A stretch of 43,295 nucleotides of DNA, from NCBI GenBank assembly GCA_024709105.1, contig JANJXJ010000141.1, forward strand, positions 1 through 43,295, read 5' to 3'. Below the pieces are notes generated by a model, which searched no databases, was not told the origin of the DNA, and saw only the letters and a program-made list of their open reading frames with translations. This DNA is from Lentimicrobium sp. (GTDB lineage Bacteria > Bacteroidota > Bacteroidia > Bacteroidales > Lentimicrobiaceae). The first letter of the stretch is position 1, and each line of letters begins with the position of its first letter. This document shows, in pieces, positions 3,262 to 11,872 of this stretch. The translations under genes were made by a program, and so were the position numbers.

Positions 3262-3714
3262 TCAGGCAAGAATCTGTTTCGCATGATTTTTGGTGTCAAC
3301 TTTTTCAATAACTTCCAAAATTACACCTTCTTCGCTGATAACAAAGGTTGTACGTATTACACCATCGTATTCCTTGCCCATAAACTTCTTTCTTCCCCAA
3401 ACCCCGTAATCATTCAGAATCTTTTTTTCTGTGTCAGCTATAAGCGGAAAAGGCAGGGAATATTTCTCCGTAAACTTTAAATGCGATTTCTCGCTGTCAG
3501 GGCTTACGCCAACGATTTTGTAACCGGCAGCTATTAATGCATCATAGTTGTCGCGCAGGCTGCAGGCTTCTGCAGTGCACCCGGGGGTGTCATCTTTAGG
3601 ATAAAAATATAACACCACTTTATTTCCTTTGAGCGATTCAAGGTTTATTTCATTGCCGTTTTGATCTTTACCGGCAAAATTCGGAGCTTTATCTCCTGCT
3701 TTCAGTGAAGCCAT
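3262..3714 (-). CDS. bcp: Thioredoxin-dependent thiol peroxidase (peroxiredoxin Bcp/PrxQ)
   Basis: A 150-residue AhpC/TSA-fold peroxiredoxin of the Bcp/PrxQ class, the usual length for the family. It reduces hydrogen peroxide and organic hydroperoxides in the cytoplasm using thioredoxin. The active-site run PKDDTPGCTAEAC holds the peroxidatic Cys46 and the resolving Cys51 five residues later, the atypical 2-Cys arrangement of PrxQ. The downstream GVSPDS and FPLIAD motifs are also present. It is monocistronic, convergent with the adhesin gene and divergent from recA. No clear TAnnTTTG promoter was found in the 214-bp recA-bcp gap on this strand. Assignment is secure from the motif and length. 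Confidence 0.95.
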   Translation of the reverse strand: MASLKAGDKAPNFAGKDQNGNEINLESLKGNKVVLYFYPKDDTPGCTAEACSLRDNYDALIAAGYKIVGVSPDSEKSHLKFTEKYSLPFPLIADTEKKILNDYGVWGRKKFMGKEYDGVIRTTFVISEEGVILEVIEKVDTKNHAKQILA

Positions 3715-3903
3715 AATTCTTTTTGTTTAAATTTCGTTTATTGTTCCTTAAACAAATGCTTTGGCTTATGGTTCAAACTCTGATTGAAATAAGGTAATTG
3801 AGAGTACTCCAATATCTGCATTAAATTTTCAGTGAATAAGATTCCTTTAAACTGTTGTTGATAAATATTTTGTGTTCATAAAAAATGTAATCAAACAATT
3901 TAG

Positions 3904-3911
3904 TAATTTTG
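3904..3911 (+). promoter_or_regulatory. -7 promoter box of recA
   Basis: TAATTTTG matches the Bacteroidota -7 consensus TAnnTTTG. Transcription would start near 3917, leaving ~40 nt before ATG 3956. No well-spaced -33 TTG was seen. Confidence 0.5.
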
Positions 3912-3955
3912 GTATTCCAGTATAAAAATTGACAACAATTGAAAATCAAAGCAAT

Positions 3956-4969
3956 ATGAGTAAAGATCAAAAAGAAACCAATCTTGAAAAATTAAAAGCC
4001 CTTCAACTCACCCTCGATAAGATTGAAAAGTCATATGGCAAGGGTACCATCATGAAACTCGGTGCAACCGAGATTGAAGAAATGCCAAGCATCTCAACCG
4101 GTTCAATTGCATTGGATGCCGCACTCGGTGTAAATGGATTGCCCAAAGGCCGCGTTGTAGAAATATATGGTCCTGAGTCATCAGGTAAAACAACGCTGGC
4201 TCTCCATGCTGTGGCTGAATCGCAGAAACAGGGCGGAATTGCTGCCTTTATTGATGCCGAGCATGCTTTCGACAGATTTTATGCGCAGAAGCTGGGCGTT
4301 AATATTGATGAGTTGTTGGTTTCACAGCCTGATAATGGTGAACAGGCACTTGAAATTGCCGAAAACCTCATCAGGTCGGGCGCAATTGATATCATTGTAA
4401 TCGACTCTGTGGCAGCGCTTACTCCCCGCAGCGAAATTGAAGGAGAAATGGGAGACTCCAAGGTTGGTTTACAAGCCAGGCTTATGTCGCAGGCTCTTCG
4501 TAAACTCACCTCTACCATAAGCAAAACAGGATGCTGCTGTATTTTTATCAATCAGCTTCGTGAAAAAATTGGTGTTATGTTCGGAAACCCCGAAACAACT
4601 ACCGGCGGTAATGCATTGAAATTTTACGCTTCGGTCCGACTGGATATCCGCAGGGTTAGCCAGATCAAAGACAATGAAAATGCCATTGGAAACCATGTAA
4701 GGGTGAAAGTGGTTAAAAATAAAGTAGCTCCGCCTTTCAGGCAGGCTGAATTTGATATCATTTATGGTGAAGGTATTTCGAAAACCGGCGAGATTGTTGA
4801 TCTTGGTGTGGATTACAACATCATTAAGAAAAGCGGCTCCTGGTTCAGTTATGGGGAAACCAAGCTTGGTCAGGGCCGGGATGCAGTAAAAAAATTACTT
4901 ATTGACAACCCCGAACTTGCTGATGAACTCGAAAAACTGGTTCGTGAGGCACTTGCCAAAACAGTATAA
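3956..4969 (+). CDS. recA: Recombinase RecA
   Basis: RecA strand-exchange ATPase for homologous recombination and SOS signalling, 337 residues from ATG 3956. Walker A is GPESSGKTT at residues 72-80. Walker B lies around [10 protein letters not shown], and the signature segments [30 protein letters not shown] are intact. An upstream in-frame TTG at 3929 would add nine residues. It directly follows a stop codon and sits only ~12 nt after the expected transcription start, so ATG 3956 (MSKDQKE) is preferred. It is a single gene on the plus strand. The C-terminal tail after the core is short (ends [10 protein letters not shown]) and lacks the long acidic tail of enterobacterial RecA. No LexA-type operator was recognised. 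Confidence 0.98.
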
Positions 4970-5004
4970 ATTAATTCAGTAAAACTATACTTCAGCCTGT
5001 GCCA

Positions 5005-5034
5005 TTGTGGCATGGGCTGATTTTATTAACTTTG
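5005..5034 (+). promoter_or_regulatory. Promoter (-33 TTG, 19 bp, -7 TAACTTTG) of TPR lipoprotein gene
   Basis: TTG at 5005-5007 and TAACTTTG at 5027-5034 are separated by 19 bp, matching the Bacteroidota consensus in both sequence and spacing. Expected transcription start is ~5040. The promoter lies inside the longest possible reading frame of the next gene (which could begin at GTG 4999), so it decides the start in favour of ATG 5065. Confidence 0.7.
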
Positions 5035-5064
5035 TACCGGATTAACAAAGACTTAACTCAAATT

Positions 5065-6111
5065 ATGCCTGCCTTATCTTTCAGAAGTGCTTTGCTTTCT
5101 GCAGTTTTGATTTCTGCAGCTGCTTTTTTCTCATCCTGTGTAAATGAAAAAATTTCACCTGATAAACAGAAAAATCAAACTGATACTGTCGTCAGTGAAC
5201 TGGAATTACTTAACAGGAAAGTAGCTGAATCAAAAGGAGTTGCAGCGCCTTTGCTTGAAAGGGCTGTATATTTCGCTAAAAATAACCGCTATAATGAAGC
5301 ACTTCAGGATATCAATAGTGCACTTGATCTGGATGATAAAAATCCTGATGTTTATGCTGCTCTTTCTGATGTGTATATGTACGAAGGTAAAATGCAGCGA
5401 TCACTTGATGCTGTAAAAAAAGCGATTGAACTTGCACCCGGCAGAGCCGACCTTGAAGTTAAAAGAGCCCGTATTTTTCTCACCATGAGCGATTACAAAC
5501 AAACGTTTGATGCACTCAGGGAAGCTCTTCGCAAAAATCCTGATAATGCAGAAGCTTTTTTTATAAGTGGTCTGGCTAATGAAGAGATGGGTGATACAGC
5601 CAAAGCTATTGAAAGTTATCAGAAAGCAGTCCTGAAACAGCAAAATCACTATGAATCGCTGAAACAACTGGGCATTCTGTTTGCTGAAAAAAAAGACAGA
5701 ATGGCCATTGATTATCTGAGAAATGCTTCATCTATAAAGCCAAAAAATCCTGAGCCATTATATATTTTGGGAATGTACTATCAGGAAACTAATGAAGCAG
5801 ACAAAGCTCTTGCGGTTTATGAGGAAATTTTGCTGATTGATTCAACTTTTACACTTGCAAATTATAATAAGGGGTATGTTTATCTTGTACTAAAAAATGA
5901 GTATTCCAGTGCTATTGAGGCATTTAACAAGGTTCTTCTCGCTGAGAATGAGAATGCAGATGCCATTTATAACCGGGGACTTGCCTATGAGCAGCTGGGA
6001 GAATATGAAATGGCAAGGAAAGATTATGAAGCCGTATTGAGACTGCGGGTCAACGACGAAAAAACAATCAATGGCTTAAACAGGCTTGATAAAGTTGCAC
6101 CACGAAAATAA
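5065..6111 (+). CDS. TPR-repeat lipoprotein
   Basis: A 348-residue envelope protein. ATG 5065 gives a lipoprotein signal peptide: MPALSFRS, a hydrophobic core, then FFSSC with lipidation at Cys25. A GTG at 4999 in the same frame would bury this signal behind 22 residues and would start before the promoter, so it was rejected. The mature part carries about eight tetratricopeptide repeats from ~residue 60 to the C-terminus, recognisable by repeated A..Y...L.l.P.n.eay phasing (for example NRYNEALQDINSALDLDDKNPDVYAALSDVY split over one repeat). TPR arrays are protein-binding scaffolds; the partner cannot be told from sequence. It has its own promoter and a strong terminator, so it is monocistronic. 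Confidence 0.9.
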   Translation: MPALSFRSALLSAVLISAAAFFSSCVNEKISPDKQKNQTDTVVSELELLNRKVAESKGVAAPLLERAVYFAKNNRYNEALQDINSALDLDDKNPDVYAALSDVYMYEGKMQRSLDAVKKAIELAPGRADLEVKRARIFLTMSDYKQTFDALREALRKNPDNAEAFFISGLANEEMGDTAKAIESYQKAVLKQQNHYESLKQLGILFAEKKDRMAIDYLRNASSIKPKNPEPLYILGMYYQETNEADKALAVYEEILLIDSTFTLANYNKGYVYLVLKNEYSSAIEAFNKVLLAENENADAIYNRGLAYEQLGEYEMARKDYEAVLRLRVNDEKTINGLNRLDKVAPRK

Positions 6112-6116
6112 TTTGC

Positions 6117-6144
6117 AAAGGCCTCTTATTCTAAAGAGGCCTTT
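6117..6144. terminator. Bidirectional rho-independent terminator
   Basis: A perfect 11-bp stem AAAGGCCTCTT/AAGAGGCCTTT with a 6-nt loop is followed by a T-run on the plus strand and an A-run on the left. It separates the convergent TPR lipoprotein and HPt genes. Confidence 0.85.
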
Positions 6145-6162
6145 TTTTGCTGTAAGCTGATT

Positions 6163-6522
6163 TTATTGTGCCTTGATTTCAGTAAGGTCGGTGATCATTT
6201 CGGCAATCATCCCCCTTATAATGGTAAGATCCTGCAGTAAAGCATCCTTATTGAAACCTTCCCCCTCTGTTTCCATAAAGTCAGCCGCACTTCTCTCTAA
6301 GCTTTTTACCTTCTCAAAGGCAGGCTGAGAAGCAAAATTGGCCACCACTCCTTTTAGGCTGTGAGCATTGAACCTAAGCATCTTAAAATCACCATCATTG
6401 ATATTCTGCTCCAATGAATTAAGCCTGTCGGGGCTTTCATTGATAAAGATATCAATAATCTCAATTATTACAGATTTGTCGAAGTACTGAAAAGTTTCAG
6501 TAAATAATTTTTTGTCAACCAT
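6163..6522 (-). CDS. Single-domain HPt histidine phosphotransfer protein
   Basis: A 119-residue all-helical HPt protein. The phospho-accepting histidine is His54 in the motif FNAHSLKGVVANF, which matches the HPt signature HxLKG with the conserved following hydrophobic run. There is no kinase or receiver domain, so it must shuttle phosphate between a hybrid kinase and a receiver encoded elsewhere. The hybrid kinase at the right end of this window and the lone receiver at 22.6-23.0 kb are possible partners, but this is inference. It follows the Feo cluster on the same strand with a 54-bp gap and appears to have its own promoter. No evidence ties it functionally to iron uptake. Confidence 0.9.
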   Translation of the reverse strand: MVDKKLFTETFQYFDKSVIIEIIDIFINESPDRLNSLEQNINDGDFKMLRFNAHSLKGVVANFASQPAFEKVKSLERSAADFMETEGEGFNKDALLQDLTIIRGMIAEMITDLTEIKAQ

Positions 6523-6554: not shown

Positions 6555-6587
6555 CAAATTTAGATAGAAAATGTGTTTAAACCTCAA
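6555..6587 (-). promoter_or_regulatory. Promoter of HPt gene
   Basis: On the minus strand TAAATTTG (6555-6562) fits the -7 consensus exactly. A TTG at 6585-6587 lies 22 bp upstream, inside the 3' end of the preceding gene. Predicted transcription start is ~6548, about 26 nt before ATG 6522. Confidence 0.5.
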
Positions 6588-6801
6588 CTTGCCGGCTATT
6601 TATTGCCTGACCGGCCTCTTTTTTTCTGCGGTTTTCTTCAATCTCCTTTTTCAGATCCTGCAGCTGGCATCCTGAACAATCAGAAGCACAACTATTACAG
6701 CCTTTTAGAGGGTCGGTAAACTTCCTGTATAATTTATAGCCTGCCAGTGCAAAAGCAGAACCAGTAATCAGCAAAACTATGAGTTCCTGATAATTTTCCA
6801 T
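6577..6801 (-). CDS. FeoB-associated Cys-rich membrane protein
   Basis: A 74-residue single-pass membrane peptide. Residues ~5-22 form one transmembrane helix (LIVLLITGSAFALAGYKLY). A cysteine cluster follows: Cys35, Cys38, Cys42, Cys45 in GCNSCASDCSGCQ, spacing CX2CX3CX2C. A charged helix (DLKKEIEENRRKK) ends the protein. This layout, one TM helix plus a CxxC-type cluster next to feoB, is that of the FeoB-associated Cys-rich family (Pfam FeoB_associated). The cysteines could bind ferrous iron or a cluster at the membrane face; this role is inferred. It is the third gene of the Feo cluster, 25 bp after the M50-like gene. Confidence 0.85.
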   Translation of the reverse strand: MENYQELIVLLITGSAFALAGYKLYRKFTDPLKGCNSCASDCSGCQLQDLKKEIEENRRKKEAGQAINSRQVEV

Positions 6802-6826
6802 TTTAAATTTGAGTTGAGCTTAGTCA

Positions 6827-7546
6827 TTAAACACCTTGTAATGCGAATAGTTGCATGGGAGGCGGGAAAAAGTTAATAAAACAGTAATATGCTGTAAGCA
6901 AAACAATTGCCAGCGTAATGATTGCCCATAACTGAGAAGGCAAACCGGTGAGCTTTGCTAAAATACTCATATCACCTGCTTTTTTGCTGTTTGAAAAAGC
7001 TAAAAATGTAATTCCTGCTGTTGAAATGATTGCCTCAGCAAAACCAATTAAACCAATAAACAGGAAAAATAAGCCCGATAATCTGGCAGAAAAATGCATT
7101 GCAGCCAGATAACATAAAACTGAGAAAGTAATAAGCCAGAAAATTCCAAAAGTGTTACGAACCAGAAAAATAAGATTGATTATGGCAAGTGAAACCAGCA
7201 TAAAGAAGCCTGTTCTGATATTTCCTGAAGCCCATAACCATATTAATCCGGTTGCCGCAAAAATAGCCAGTGGATAACCGGAAAAAGTGACTAATGCAGC
7301 CCTGAATCTGGATTGGGATTTGGTAAGAGCAGACCCGGATGTGTTTGAATTCAGCTTTATTTCAATCACTTCCCCGCTTAACAAAATGGCAGCCAAAGCA
7401 TGACCATTTTCATGGAACAGCGTGTTAAGGGTCTTAAAAAAGTTGTTGAGGTAGGGTATTTTCAATAACAGCAGTGACAAAGCAAATACTGCATAAAACA
7501 CAGCAGCAGGATTTTTGTCAAAAAATGTTGTTATTTCAGTGGCCAT
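6827..7546 (-). CDS. M50-like integral-membrane metalloprotease in the Feo operon
   Basis: A 239-residue polytopic protein with about six transmembrane segments (~15-30, 83-106, 110-133, 136-155, 158-180, 205-228). HENGH at residues 45-49 is the zinc-binding HExxH of M50 site-2-protease-like enzymes. A distal GDMSILAKLTGLPSQLW block (~191-207) resembles the conserved Asp-containing C-terminal block of M50B peptidases, which would supply the third ligand. The start codon overlaps the feoAB stop (TAATG, 7544-7548), so translation is coupled to the iron transporter. Substrate unknown. It could process a regulatory or transporter component, or be a non-peptidase membrane protein that kept the motif; the Feo link is strong, the enzymatic role inferred. 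Confidence 0.75.
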   Translation of the reverse strand: MATEITTFFDKNPAAVFYAVFALSLLLLKIPYLNNFFKTLNTLFHENGHALAAILLSGEVIEIKLNSNTSGSALTKSQSRFRAALVTFSGYPLAIFAATGLIWLWASGNIRTGFFMLVSLAIINLIFLVRNTFGIFWLITFSVLCYLAAMHFSARLSGLFFLFIGLIGFAEAIISTAGITFLAFSNSKKAGDMSILAKLTGLPSQLWAIITLAIVLLTAYYCFINFFPPPMQLFALQGV

Positions 7547-10062
7547 TAAACAATAAAACTACCGATCTGAAAAACAATGAGTGAAACCAGATAAGCCAGG
7601 GCCGTTGTATAAACTACAATGAAGGCCGCCCATTTCCAGCTTCCGCTTTCTTTTTTAATGGCTGCGACCACAGCAACACAAGGGAAGTATATGAGTATGA
7701 ACAGCATGAAGCTGAATGCAACCAGAGGAGTAAAGACTTTTTCTCCTTTGCGGTGTCCTTCATAATAAGTTTGTTGCTGAAGTTTCTGAATCAGTGAGGC
7801 TGAGGTTTCGTCGGCATCGGCACCTACCTGATAGAGTACCCCCAGGGTCCCAACCGTGATTTCTTTAGCGGCAACGCCGGTAAGTATAGCTACACTCATT
7901 TTCCAGTCGAAACCAAGTGGGCGCATCACCGGTTCAATCATATGGCCCAATCGGCCGATGTATGAATTTAACTGCCTGTAACTTTCATGCTCATGTATTA
8001 CCTGATTGAGGATTTCATCCAATTCTTCACTAGTTGTAACCAGCTCATTTGTCTCAGGATGAGTTAATGTTCCGTTCTCAAACATGGCAGTAGTTTCTGA
8101 AAGACGGGTATTGTAAAAGCCGTCTTTGTCTGTTTCGCGGGGAAAGTAGCCTAATGCCCAAATAATGATTGAAGCTACCAGAATTACACCTCCTATTTTT
8201 CTCAGGTATTGTTCGGCCCGGCTCCACATGTGGCGAAGAATGGCTTTAGGTGTCGGAACACGGTAGGGGGGGAGTTCCATTACGAATGGAATATCAGGCC
8301 CTCTGACAATTGCTTTTTTGAAAAGAAGTGCAGAACCAATGGCTAAAAGAACACCAAAAAAGTACATCAAAAAAAGAATACTGCCCTGATACTTGACAAA
8401 AAAAGCACTGATAAACAAAATGTATACAGGCAACCTTGCACTGCATGACATAAAGGGATTGATGAGCATGGTAATAAGCCTGTCGCGGCGGCTTTCAATG
8501 ATTCTTGTGCTTAGAATTGCAGGTACATTACAGCCAAACCCCATAAGTAAGGGGATAAATGATTTTCCATGGAGCCCGATTTTGTGCATGGCCTTGTCCA
8601 TTATAAATACAGCTCTGGCCATGTATCCGGTATCTTCCATCAGCGAGATAAACAGATACAGTAAAAGAATATTAGGCAGGAATATGATAACACCTCCAAT
8701 GCCTCCAAGAATCCCATCAATCATCAGGTCTTTAAGGATTCCGTCTGCAAGGAGCCTATCCAGTCCTGAGGCAACCATATCCACCAGCATCTCTATCCAG
8801 GTCATCGGATATTCACCGATTCTGAAAGTGCCGTAGAAGGTCAGCCACATAAAGAATACAAAAATCGGAATACCCCAGACTTTATGAGTAATGATTGTGT
8901 CAACTATTTCGGTTTTTTTGCGCTGTATAATCTTATTTGGAGTAAAGGTCTCTCTCAGTGCCCCTGCAATAAACCCATATTTTGCATCCGCTATCAAACT
9001 TTCTGTGTCCTGCCCCGATGATTGTTCAATCAACTCAATCTGGGAATCTGTTACCTCAGTAACTTCCTGATAATTGACAAGTTGCTCCGAAAGAACTTCG
9101 GTTGCTCTGTCTTTTTCTATAAGTTTAAGCGCCAGGAAGCGGGTAGAGATTTTGTCAATAATTGCAGTATTTCCAGGTTTACGGAGATAATCCTGAATTT
9201 TTTTAATACCCTGTTCAACTATTGAACCATAATTGATGTGAATGTGGCGTACAGTTTCGTCACGGTTTTCATAAACATCAATGATTTTATTAAGCAATTG
9301 GTCGATGCCTTTACCTCTGGAACCAATGGTTGTTACAAAAGGTATCCCCAGCAGCTTTCCAAGTTGATGATAATCAAGTTTATTTCCGGCTTTTTCAAGC
9401 TCGTCGTACATGTTTAGGACTCCCACCAGCTTGATGTCCATATCAATCAGCTGCGTAGTGAGGAACAGATTTCTCTCAAGATTTGAACTGTCTAAGATAT
9501 TTACAACAATGTCCGGCGCCGATTCTGTAATAAAATCTCTTACAAATAACTCCTCAGGACTGTAAGCACTTATGGAATAAGTACCTGGCAGGTCAGTAAT
9601 TACAAACTTATATCCTCCGAATTTTATGCGGGCTTCCTTGGCATCAACGGTAACTCCTGAGTAATTTCCTACTCTTTCCTTGAGTCCTGAGATTTGATTA
9701 AAAATGGTTGTTTTTCCTGAATTAGGATTTCCAACCAATGCTATATTTATGGTTTTGCCTGCTGTTCTGGTATGGCCATTATGTAATTCACCTTCAATAC
9801 TGCCCTTGGAAGTCATTTCGTAGTTAGCTGAAGCAGTATCTTCGGTTGTGATCTCAACCAAAGCAGCATCACAATTTCGCAGCGAAACATTATACCCCAT
9901 TACATGATATTCAACAGGATCCATAAACGGAGCACGCTGTACCACAGAAACTTCTTTTCCTGTAATAAAGCCCATCTCCATGATGCGCTTGCGAAACGCA
10001 CCCCTGCCCCTAATCTTTGTAATCGTGCCCTTTCCTCCGGGTATCAGCTCGTCTAATGTCAA
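7546..10062 (-). CDS. feoB: FeoA-FeoB fusion ferrous iron transporter
   Basis: Fe(II) importer of the inner membrane, ~838 residues, with FeoA fused to FeoB as is common in Bacteroidota. The SH3-like FeoA domain occupies ~1-75 (MTLDELIPGG, RRIMEMGF-type turn, SLRNCDAALVEI). The G domain follows: G1 GNPNSGKTT at 111-119, G3 DLPG at 157-160, G4 NMYD at 217-220. The permease contains the gate motifs GFGCNVPA and MSCSARLPVY and the C-terminal ILTGVAAKEITVGTLGVLYQ. The longest frame starts at TTG 10095, but that codon lies within a perfect -7 box (10093-10100). TTG 10062 gives a canonical FeoA start and is preferred. No Fur box was recognised upstream. It leads the operon with the M50-like and Cys-rich genes. 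Confidence 0.95.
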   Translation of the reverse strand: MTLDELIPGGKGTITKIRGRGAFRKRIMEMGFITGKEVSVVQRAPFMDPVEYHVMGYNVSLRNCDAALVEITTEDTASANYEMTSKGSIEGELHNGHTRTAGKTINIALVGNPNSGKTTIFNQISGLKERVGNYSGVTVDAKEARIKFGGYKFVITDLPGTYSISAYSPEELFVRDFITESAPDIVVNILDSSNLERNLFLTTQLIDMDIKLVGVLNMYDELEKAGNKLDYHQLGKLLGIPFVTTIGSRGKGIDQLLNKIIDVYENRDETVRHIHINYGSIVEQGIKKIQDYLRKPGNTAIIDKISTRFLALKLIEKDRATEVLSEQLVNYQEVTEVTDSQIELIEQSSGQDTESLIADAKYGFIAGALRETFTPNKIIQRKKTEIVDTIITHKVWGIPIFVFFMWLTFYGTFRIGEYPMTWIEMLVDMVASGLDRLLADGILKDLMIDGILGGIGGVIIFLPNILLLYLFISLMEDTGYMARAVFIMDKAMHKIGLHGKSFIPLLMGFGCNVPAILSTRIIESRRDRLITMLINPFMSCSARLPVYILFISAFFVKYQGSILFLMYFFGVLLAIGSALLFKKAIVRGPDIPFVMELPPYRVPTPKAILRHMWSRAEQYLRKIGGVILVASIIIWALGYFPRETDKDGFYNTRLSETTAMFENGTLTHPETNELVTTSEELDEILNQVIHEHESYRQLNSYIGRLGHMIEPVMRPLGFDWKMSVAILTGVAAKEITVGTLGVLYQVGADADETSASLIQKLQQQTYYEGHRKGEKVFTPLVAFSFMLFILIYFPCVAVVAAIKKESGSWKWAAFIVVYTTALAYLVSLIVFQIGSFIV

Positions 10063-10092
10063 TGGTGTATTATTTAGAAAGATTTTAAATAG

Positions 10093-10100
10093 CAAAAATA
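10093..10100 (-). promoter_or_regulatory. -7 promoter box of the feo operon
   Basis: TATTTTTG on the minus strand fits TAnnTTTG. Predicted transcription start ~10086, 24 nt before TTG 10062. A clear -33 TTG at the right spacing is missing, as expected for a regulated promoter, though this could also be chance. Confidence 0.45.
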
Positions 10101-10207: not shown

Positions 10208-10729
10208 TTAAGTGTTTAGCAAAGGATCGGATTTGTGTAAAGCAGTTAGGGCATAAGTAATCTTTTTGCCATAATTTTCTCTGAAAAGTCTGGTAATTCC
10301 TGCAACAGCATTTTCGCGTGAGCTATATCTGTTCTTCTGATACAGCATTATAAAATCTTTCATATCCTGATAAATATCAGCGATGCATTCCCCCAAACTC
10401 ATTTTTTGAAGGTTGCTGTTTTCTCCATCTACTTCCTCAGGCATCCAAAAGTGATCGTGCGGATAAAACTTGTTTCTCAGTGTGTTAAAGATCAACTCCC
10501 ACGATTCTTCAGTAACAAATCTTTCATCAGCATCAGGGTCTTCAGGAATTAAAGGTTTAACAACTGAACCTTTTAGATAAAGCAGTGGCAAAATGTGTCT
10601 GTAGAAAGTGATAATATCCTGACTTTCATACTTCTCTGAATTTTCTGTAAAAACACAGAACTCATTGGCTACCGTGAGCAATTCTATTACCTGTTTTGAG
10701 TAAACGGGGTCATTAGGCTGAATTTCCAT
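10208..10729 (-). CDS. DUF5063-like conserved protein
   Basis: A soluble, mostly helical, acidic protein of 173 residues with no signal peptide or transmembrane segment. The N-terminal block (VIELLTVANEFCVF) and the central DHFWMPEE and LGECIADIYQDMKDFIMLYQ segments resemble the DUF5063 family of Bacteroidota. That assignment is from memory of the family pattern and is moderate. Function is unknown. It is a single gene upstream of the feo operon on the same strand, with a 112-bp gap and its own -7 box. No catalytic motif can be pointed to. Confidence 0.75.
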   Translation of the reverse strand: MEIQPNDPVYSKQVIELLTVANEFCVFTENSEKYESQDIITFYRHILPLLYLKGSVVKPLIPEDPDADERFVTEESWELIFNTLRNKFYPHDHFWMPEEVDGENSNLQKMSLGECIADIYQDMKDFIMLYQKNRYSSRENAVAGITRLFRENYGKKITYALTALHKSDPLLNT

Positions 10730-10747
10730 TTCAAATCATTTGAATGG

Positions 10748-10755
10748 CAAAGTTA
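10748..10755 (-). promoter_or_regulatory. -7 promoter box of DUF5063-like gene
   Basis: TAACTTTG on the minus strand, exact match to TAnnTTTG, with predicted start ~10742 and a ~13-nt leader to ATG 10729. No TTG at -33. Confidence 0.5.
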
Positions 10756-11006
10756 ACAGTTATATTAATCCGGTTATTAAAAATGCTTTTCAAAAGGTGG
10801 TTGTAATATTCGTTATGGCATTAATGCCAGTGATTATCGTCGCTTCATCCCGCATAAAAATTACTGCCGACTTGATTTAGAAAAATAGCTATATTTACAA
10901 AACAATCAATAGATGTCTTTAAATTGCTTTTGGCAATTCCAAAATGTGGAATAATATTCCAAAGTCAGAAATTGTTAAATTGGTCTTTAAAATATTCAGG
11001 TTTATG

Positions 11007-11459
11007 GAAAGGCTATTGCTTAAGAAGCGGCTGCTTGAAATGTGCCGGGAACTCAAAGTTGAGAATGAAAAGAATTTGCTTTTAGCGATGGAAGATGCCC
11101 AGCAAAGTGCAAATGATTATGGACAGCCGCGCGACAGATACGACTCATACAGGGCACAGCTGCTTCGAAAACGTGATATGCTTGGGCAGCAACTTGAAAA
11201 GGTTCAGAATGAGATTGCTGTTCTTGACCGGATTGATTTGAAAAGAGCTTGTACCGAAGCAGGATTCGGATCTGTAGTAATAACTGACCAGCAAAAAGTG
11301 TTTATTTCCATTGGAATCGGAAAGATTTGTCTGGAAGGAGAGGGGGATTTTTATGCCATTTCTTCGGGGGTGCCTTTTGCAGAAGCTGCCAAAAATAAAA
11401 GGAAAGGCGATTTTATAGTTTTTAATGGCAAAAAAACAGAGGTACTTGATGTTTTCTGA
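11007..11459 (+). CDS. GreA/GreB-like small protein
   Basis: A ~150-residue protein from ATG 11007 (ATG 10944 in frame would add 21 residues; the shorter form matches the usual length and N-terminus of the family). Residues ~1-75 form a charged coiled coil (MEDAQQSANDYGQPRDRYDSY...), and the C-terminal ~75 residues form a beta domain (GSVVITDQQKVFISIGIGK, FYAISSGVPFAEA, GDFIVFNGKK). This layout resembles transcript-cleavage factors GreA/GreB, and Bacteroidota databases often mislabel such proteins as 3-oxoacyl-ACP synthase. The acidic tip residues that make GreA a cleavage factor cannot be confirmed, so binding to RNA polymerase is inferred only. It converges with rplS across a terminator. 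A near -7 box (TATATTTA, 10890-10897) has one mismatch. Confidence 0.75.
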   Translation, partial: ERLLLKKRLLEMCRELKVENEKNLLLAMEDAQQSANDYGQPRDRYDSYRAQLLRKRDMLGQQLEKVQNEIAVLDRIDLKRACTEAGFGSVVITDQQKVFISIGIGKICLEGEGDFYAISSGVPFAEAAKNKRKGDFIVFNGKKTEVLDVF

Positions 11460-11466
11460 AAAAAAA

Positions 11467-11490
11467 AGTCTGCTCCATAGGAAGCAGACT
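11467..11490 (-). terminator. Rho-independent terminator of rplS
   Basis: An 8-bp stem AGTCTGCT/AGCAGACT with an 8-nt loop, 26 bp after the rplS stop. On the minus strand it is followed by a long T-run (A-run at 11458-11467 on the plus strand). It overlaps the end of the convergent GreA/B-like transcript and may serve both. Confidence 0.8.
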
Positions 11491-11515
11491 CTCTTCAACA
11501 CTTATGAAAACAAAG

Positions 11516-11872
11516 TTAAACCCTTTTCTCTTTAATTCTGGCTTTTTTACCTTTGAGGTCACGGAGATAGAAAATACGTGCTCTGCGAACAACGCCTCTC
11601 TTGTTGACTTCAATTTTGTCAATAAAAGGAGAAGCAATAGGGAAAATTCTCTCAACGCCAGTGTTGCCTGAAATTTTCCTGACTGTGAAAGTTTCAGTTA
11701 CACCACTTCCTGCACGTTGTAAAACAACGCCCTGAAACTGCTGAATTCTTTCCTTGTCACCTTCTTTGATTTTATAGTGAACGGTAATGGTGTCGCCGGC
11801 TTTGAAGCTTGGTAACTCTTTCATAGTCACGAAATTGTCCTCTACAAACTTCAGTAATGCGTTCTTGCTCAT
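11516..11872 (-). CDS. rplS: 50S ribosomal protein L19
   Basis: L19 of the large ribosomal subunit, 118 residues, normal length. It sits at the 30S-50S interface. Conserved family blocks are [57 protein letters not shown] and [18 protein letters not shown]. In most bacteria rplS directly follows trmD in an rpsP-rimM-trmD-rplS operon. Here trmD lies upstream on the same strand but the cstA gene, on the opposite strand, separates the two by 1.8 kb. Accordingly rplS has its own promoter and terminator. Confidence 0.98.

Follow-up and report, generated by a model that had tools for sequence, protein, structure and literature searches.

The window analysed here, a 43,295 nucleotide (nt) stretch of DNA from Lentimicrobium sp. 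(GenBank assembly GCA_024709105.1, contig JANJXJ010000141.1), carries a gene for a Peptidase M50B-like membrane protein. The gene lies between feoAB, which encodes a FeoA-FeoB fusion, and a gene for a small Cys-rich peptide. We find that this gene, hereafter M50B, is a conserved but lineage-specific, not universal, part of the Feo ferrous iron import system. This is because all 18 carriers of the same genus have M50B linked to feoAB, but only 12 of 40 carriers in other families of the order do. Our preferred reading, held tentatively, is that the protein is an intramembrane protease-like accessory to Feo in part of the Bacteroidales. Its likely partner would be the Cys-rich peptide, which it would clip or turn over.

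The M50B-like protein and its predicted fold

The initial annotation described a FeoA-FeoB fusion next to a membrane protein with a HExxH motif. The open reading frames (ORFs), the HENGH sequence and D192 are all present as described, and a Cys-rich peptide gene does follow, beginning 25 nt past M50B (Table 1). On the minus strand the gene order is DUF5063, feoAB, M50B, Cys-rich peptide and stand-alone Hpt. In a profile scan, FeoAB was above the cut-offs of FeoA, FeoB_N, FeoB_Cyto, Gate and FeoB_C. The M50B protein matches PF13398 (Peptidase M50B-like) over residues 20-220 of 239 with 115.1 bits, against a cut-off of 26. Like that family, it carries HExxH and a distal Asp that is conserved. 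The window's own genome holds a single PF13398 match at E ≤0.001, above cut-off; a narrow DNA pattern search of the same genome returned nothing. NCBIfam holds no family for the protein, and a sequence search of the PDB gave a single chance-level match (E 0.66).

Conservation of the presumed active site was assessed in 59 aligned homologs, 51 from protein or profile searches and eight from a sequence pattern. Residues T42, H45, E46, H49, G71, G90 and Y91 occur in all 59, and G191 and D192 in 58. HExxH is also present in 28/28 phylum-level loci found by profile. Thus the possibility, raised with the initial annotation, that homologs lack HExxH did not hold up. A second alignment, A2, has 67 rows, all of which have N41, T42, H45, E46, G48, H49, G71, G90, Y91, R130, N131, G134, W137, G191 and D192. 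The invariance of NT..HExGH in A2 is partly built in, because every row but the window was found with the pattern NT[LM][LFI]HE[SNT]GH, with which 80 named-genome loci were gathered. Residue D192 is presumed to be the third metal ligand.

An AlphaFold2 model, made with A2, has a predicted local distance difference test score of 95.4 and a predicted template modelling score of 0.91. The model contains seven long helices (residues 13-29, 33-55, 90-106, 110-128, 132-151, 154-185 and 204-226) where six had been described, and a beta hairpin (59-76) directly follows the HENGH helix. From the positive-inside rule, the hairpin and the Asp192 loop would be cytoplasmic, with the active site near the cytoplasmic membrane face. 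The best structural neighbours are indeed site-2 proteases (S2Ps), which make up six of the top seven VIA-align 2 rows, though with Z-scores of 5.6-7.5 the resemblance is suggestive only. They are RseP of K. koreensis (Z 7.5), E. coli (6.5) and A. aeolicus (two entries, 6.5 and 6.1), SpoIVFB (6.4) and the S2P of M. jannaschii (mjS2P; 5.6). The alignments fall in model residues 29-209, a span that includes H45, E46, H49 and D192. The HExxH helix, the hairpin right after it and the Asp segment are shared in the aligned region. The spacing between HExxH and Asp is about 145 residues in the window protein but shorter in SpoIVFB and mjS2P. Classical S2Ps carry an LDG-type motif around the Asp. The context of Asp192 is KKAGDMSIL, so we do not class the protein as a classical S2P. 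By its family and conserved active-site residues the protein is protease-like, and it is probably an intramembrane metalloprotease.

Distribution of the feoAB-M50B-Cys order

Among 60 genomes of relatives, the window's own included, 24 gave a match. One of these (G055, locus L024) is another M50 protein, leaving 23 gene carriers. The 18 from the same genus all have the order feoAB-M50B-Cys. Together with the match to a curated family, this disfavours a chance pairing. The only other genome of the genus (G003, 78% complete) has neither M50B nor feoAB nor the peptide. Outside the genus, G056 has the same order, and G037 keeps M50B and the Cys peptide together with feoAB on a separate contig. M50B is unlinked in G019, G029 and G043. 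Three genomes without M50B (G030, G035 and G057) have the Cys peptide directly after feoAB, and in G057 this pair is flanked by DUF5063 and Hpt, as in the window.

The initial annotation placed the M50B start inside the feoAB stop codon, as TAATG, and the window sequence agrees. Across the 18 same-genus genomes, where the start in L012 is ambiguous, the exact overlap was found in the window's genome only, and the offset of the M50B start from the final base of the feoAB stop ranges from -3 to 21. This spread rules out TAATG coupling as a conserved device.

In an order-wide sample of 393 genomes, 58 matched and 46 were kept as M50B carriers. The 12 dropped matches were partial, with E 2.7e-7 or weaker; the one inspected was again G055. 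Upstream feoAB was found in 18 of the 46, in seven families, including 6/6 of the window's family. The other 12 (G056, G335, G342, G401, G410, G422, G441, G497, G506, G576, G638 and G644) are among 40 homologs outside that family and belong to f12, f27, f39, f118, f125 and f184. The estimated gap between feoAB and M50B is at most 24 nt in 11 of these 12 and about 133 nt in L213. A further seven of the 40 (G037, G415, G510, G586, G648, G630 and G487; f20 and f172) have M50B with the Cys peptide and no adjoining feoAB. In these genomes feoAB sits elsewhere or no match was found; G586, which is 92% complete, has no FeoAB at E 1e-20. No link to feoAB or the Cys peptide was seen in the remaining 21, one of which (L219) ends just past M50B, with the downstream side outside the sequence. 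Thus the proposed linkage to feo stands in seven families of the order and was not seen in nearly half of the homologs.

In a wider, class-level sample 10/247 genomes matched, the window's own included. The nine other loci (L114 included) have no feoAB upstream, and in L109 a FeoB-like stretch lies about 0.9 kb away on the opposite strand. In the phylum sample 38/395 genomes matched, mostly weakly. These comprise 28 loci examined, the window, L114 and eight without a locus, which were left out. None of the 28 has feoAB or a Cys peptide within ~1.5 kb of M50B. Together with the 21 order-wide homologs for which no link was seen, this makes the alternative that the neighbour is merely scattered partly true. 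The first searches yielded 92 distinct loci: 20 with feoAB and peptide, one with feoAB only, five with peptide only and 66 with neither. The last group includes Bacillota loci, where feoAB was not matched. Feo linkage is therefore ruled out as a property of the whole family by the 66 unlinked loci, and as a quirk of the window's family by the six other families with feoAB upstream. Three genomes carry double labels (G308/G630, G309/G487 and G317/G510), and none was entered twice in any single count.

Two side observations concern unlinked homologs. Bacillota homologs (L069 and similar Halobacillus loci) adjoin molybdate-type ATP-binding cassette transporter genes, named from reading the sequences, in several genomes. 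In another unlinked family (L209, 3679-4074; L046, 5554-5949), M50B is preceded not by feo genes but by a small membrane protein of 131 residues.

In G536 (L223, 2379-4287), DUF5063, M50B and Hpt form a cluster that contains neither feoAB nor a Cys peptide. The feoAB of this genome lies elsewhere, with its own Cys peptide, which has no charged tail. G342, of the same family, holds the full feoAB-M50B-Cys set. The comparison of G536 with G342 suggests that this part of the order had feoAB-M50B-Cys early on and that the arrangement was later broken several times. Two M50B trees have weak backbones, with long branches meeting in both, and bootstrapping of the second tree did not reach convergence. 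In a FeoAB tree made by a quick method, all 20 linked FeoABs, four of seven FeoABs split from M50B-Cys and six others form one 30-row clade; the remaining three split FeoABs fall outside it.

The Cys-rich peptide as candidate partner

The 74-residue peptide scores 25.0 bits (E 2.3e-5) on PF12669. We call it FeoB-associated-like because this is below the cut-off of 27. Its Cys spacing is C-x2-C-x3-C-x2-C, which does not match the published motif for FeoB-associated Cys-rich peptides, Cx3-5Cx2-3Cx6-8C (PMC8749426).

Two comparisons shift the likely partner of M50B from the transporter towards this peptide. The first concerns genomes with M50B-Cys away from feoAB (G308, G309, G315, G317, G037, G415 and G648). 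All seven have a feoAB copy without its own Cys peptide within 900 nt downstream; G315 also holds a second feoAB that has one. Other feoAB copies have a Cys peptide in 17 of 22 cases (Fisher p 5e-4 against 0/7, in a comparison chosen post hoc). This count drops G443 as a duplicate of G316, leaves out the second feoAB of G315 and scores G639 as a fused peptide by eye; without G639 it is 16/22. The FeoAB of G639 (L236) seems to be extended at its C terminus by a hydrophobic stretch, which could be a fused Cys-peptide domain.

The second comparison concerns the charged tail of the peptide. An LKxEI-type tail occurs in 30 of 34 peptides beside M50B (14 of 16 outside the window's family) and in 2 of 17 not beside it; the pattern was picked after seeing the data, and the tests ignore relatedness. 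When a profile of the tail was built from the window's family only and applied to the rest, it separated the groups (p 9e-4). The membrane segment preceding the cysteines gave no such separation (p 0.08).

In our preferred reading, M50B would be made from the feoAB mRNA, probably a single transcript. Upon a change in iron or redox state, the protease would clip or turn over the Cys peptide, or FeoB loaded with the peptide. Such cleavage would then set the amount of active FeoAB in the membrane, comparable to the control by FeoC, FtsH and Lon in Salmonella. A more elaborate version, which we consider doubtful, is that a dedicated intramembrane metalloprotease works with a small Cys-rich substrate as a switch on Feo that responds to iron or redox state. 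Here the Cys cluster would sense iron or oxygen, the protease would release or destroy the cytoplasmic tail, and FeoAB activity would go up or down, in trans where feoAB lies elsewhere.

Several observations weigh against our preferred reading. The Z-scores of all S2Ps are below the guide value of 8, and Foldseek by itself returned nothing at E ≤0.001 and placed mjS2P third, at E 1.5. The structural likeness is hence support and not proof, because such scores may reflect only a common arrangement. Four linked loci (L198, L200, L225 and L227) have feoAB-M50B with no Cys peptide detected, and the 21 unlinked homologs have neither partner beside them. Nor does M50B always occur with FeoAB: no FeoAB match at E ≤1e-20 was found in 5/21 carriers (G586, G338, G545, G421 and G583), in 4/22 of a separate set (three apparently the same genomes), or, as a true match, in G029. 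Equally, 36/41 other-family genomes in the relatives sample have no M50B, and most of these are FeoAB-positive. Two genomes without M50B (G057 and G030) encode peptides with the charged tail, and their FeoABs are close to the linked ones in the FeoAB tree. The tail may therefore track FeoAB ancestry, and common ancestry may explain part of the correlation. The inverted repeat described below precedes only 2/8 detached M50B-Cys pairs at 11 or more of 14 positions, so a comparison of operator sites gave the peptide no help. Finally, classical S2P substrates have a type II orientation, whereas the peptide is likely to be N-out.

The protease might instead act directly on FeoAB, in quality control or turnover. 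The Cys peptide would in that case be a bystander or protector. The adjacency of feoAB and M50B in seven families, with the short gaps noted above, fits this, as do the four loci without a detected Cys peptide. There are also precedents: the rhomboid protease YqgP cleaves the metal transporter MgtE, and FtsH acts on FeoB unless FeoC shields it, FeoC itself being degraded by Lon (PMC10710835). However, in 7/46 genomes M50B adjoins the Cys peptide and feoAB is at another site or was not detected. Moreover, S2P-type enzymes usually favour single-pass substrates. We regard direct action on FeoAB as unlikely. A non-proteolytic role in metal handling or assembly, in which HExxH and the Asp bind metal or the protein is an adaptor to FtsH, would suit a gene in a metal-transport operon, and YqgP directs MgtE to FtsH independently of its own catalytic activity (PMC10710835). 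Yet Glu46, the presumed catalytic residue, is kept in 59/59 homologs, beyond the needs of a structural metal site. We consider this role very unlikely. The protein could also be a membrane peptidase with a general role across Bacteroidota and Bacillota, standing beside feo only through ancestral gene order. The 66 of 92 loci without feoAB or Cys link speak for this, as do the shared order of DUF5063, Hpt, TPR and recA in many same-family loci and the G536 locus, where M50B keeps DUF5063 and Hpt without feoAB. Against this, M50B is linked to feoAB in seven families and, in two further families, to the Cys peptide with no feoAB alongside, most linked loci have gaps of a few nt, and the tail correlates with M50B. 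We think a general peptidase improbable.

Operon surroundings and known Feo systems

Table 1. Features of the feoAB-M50B locus, all on the minus strand of the window.
Feature	Position	Basis
M50B-like membrane metallopeptidase-like gene, 239 residues, seven long helices	6827..7546	PF13398, structure model
feoAB fusion	7546..10062 (stop 7546-7548)	ORF call and profile scores; start TTG 10062 probable
TAATG, feoAB stop overlapping M50B start	7544..7548	sequence
HENGH, residues 45-49, presumed zinc site and catalytic Glu	7400..7414	motif conservation
Asp192, presumed third metal ligand, within KKAGDMSILAKLTGLP	6971..6973	conservation across homologs
Cys-rich FeoB-associated-like peptide, 74 residues	6577..6801	25.0 bits on PF12669, cut-off 27
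Cys cluster CNSCASDCSGC of the peptide	6667-6699	sequence
Charged tail QLQDLKKEIEEN... of the peptide	6580-6666	sequence, tail comparison
Stand-alone Hpt domain, common downstream neighbour	6163..6522	profile scan, locus comparison
DUF5063 protein, common upstream neighbour	10208..10729	profile scan, locus comparison
Operator-like inverted repeat TTTAAAA-TCT-TTCTAAA, immediately upstream of feoAB	10073..10089	window sequence, relatives
TATTTTTG, like Bacteroidota -7 box	10093..10100	sequence

The ORF caller places feoAB at 7546-10095, starting from the first TTG. The TTG at 10062, the end coordinate in the initial annotation, is the probable start. This is because TTG 10095 sits inside TATTTTTG, which resembles TAnnTTTG, the Bacteroidota -7 box consensus. 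TTG 10062 is also the better fit to the upstream sequences of relatives.

Immediately ahead of feoAB, the window and ten relatives have an inverted repeat that reads TTTA[AT]AA-N3-TTCTAAA or nearly so. In 11/11 upstream regions of same-family relatives, 12 or 13 of the 14 repeat positions agree. We set the consensus and a threshold of 11/14 after viewing the data. At this threshold the repeat precedes 11/11 linked feoAB of the family, 5/10 linked feoAB of other families (an eleventh, L215, being too short), 7/7 split feoAB, 6/20 other feoAB and 1/21 unlinked M50B genes. The classical Fur consensus was not enriched. The repeat resembles an Irr-type iron box, and our guess is that it acts as an iron operator. 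Where M50B shares the feoAB mRNA, its expression may respond to iron, with no good sign of this in other settings, because the repeat precedes feoAB but rarely the detached M50B genes.

The order of the peroxiredoxin-like, recA, TPR, Hpt and DUF5063 genes is kept in many same-family loci (window 3262-6522 and 10208-11872; L025-L038). In L035 and L036, of the same family, an additional gene (ORFs of 230 and 211 residues) separates the Cys peptide from Hpt.

Parts of this arrangement are known. FeoAB fusions have been described, with no protease partner named in the text available, and such operons are said to be without a feoC gene (PMC8980893). In Firmicutes and Bacteroidetes, a gene for a Cys-rich peptide follows feoB, and what the peptide does is described as an unanswered question (PMC8749426); the word 'peptidase' does not occur in the main text of that paper. 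A FeoB-associated-type peptide is among the transcripts in iron-depletion and regulator-deletion comparisons (PMC10434189, PMC9478572). The present locus differs from the known Bacteroidetes pairing of FeoAB with a PF12669 peptide (PMC8749426, PMC8980893) in that M50B sits between them and the peptides beside M50B mostly have an extra charged tail. The literature searched, at the level of titles and the starts of abstracts and with most subscription papers outside it, contained no description of a feo-linked M50B gene. Within it no PF13398 member was described in a feo operon, the family being named only in a fungal chitinase survey.

In Salmonella, a small Cys-containing Feo protein is tied to proteolytic control of FeoB (PMC10710835), a likeness to the arrangement proposed here. 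The window's putative protease differs in being encoded in the operon, and its small protein in being a membrane peptide; FeoC-like proteins were not matched among the scanned neighbours in the window. In B. subtilis, YqgP and MgtE likewise pair an intramembrane protease with regulation of a metal transporter (PMC10710835), with no small Cys peptide named in the text available. YqgP is a rhomboid, a serine protease, and not a metalloprotease.

The locus thus offers a candidate for post-translational control of ferrous iron import in FeoAB-fusion bacteria, the operons of which are said to be without FeoC (PMC8980893). That M50B keeps company with the Cys peptide even without an adjacent feoAB gives a direct handle on the role of this peptide.

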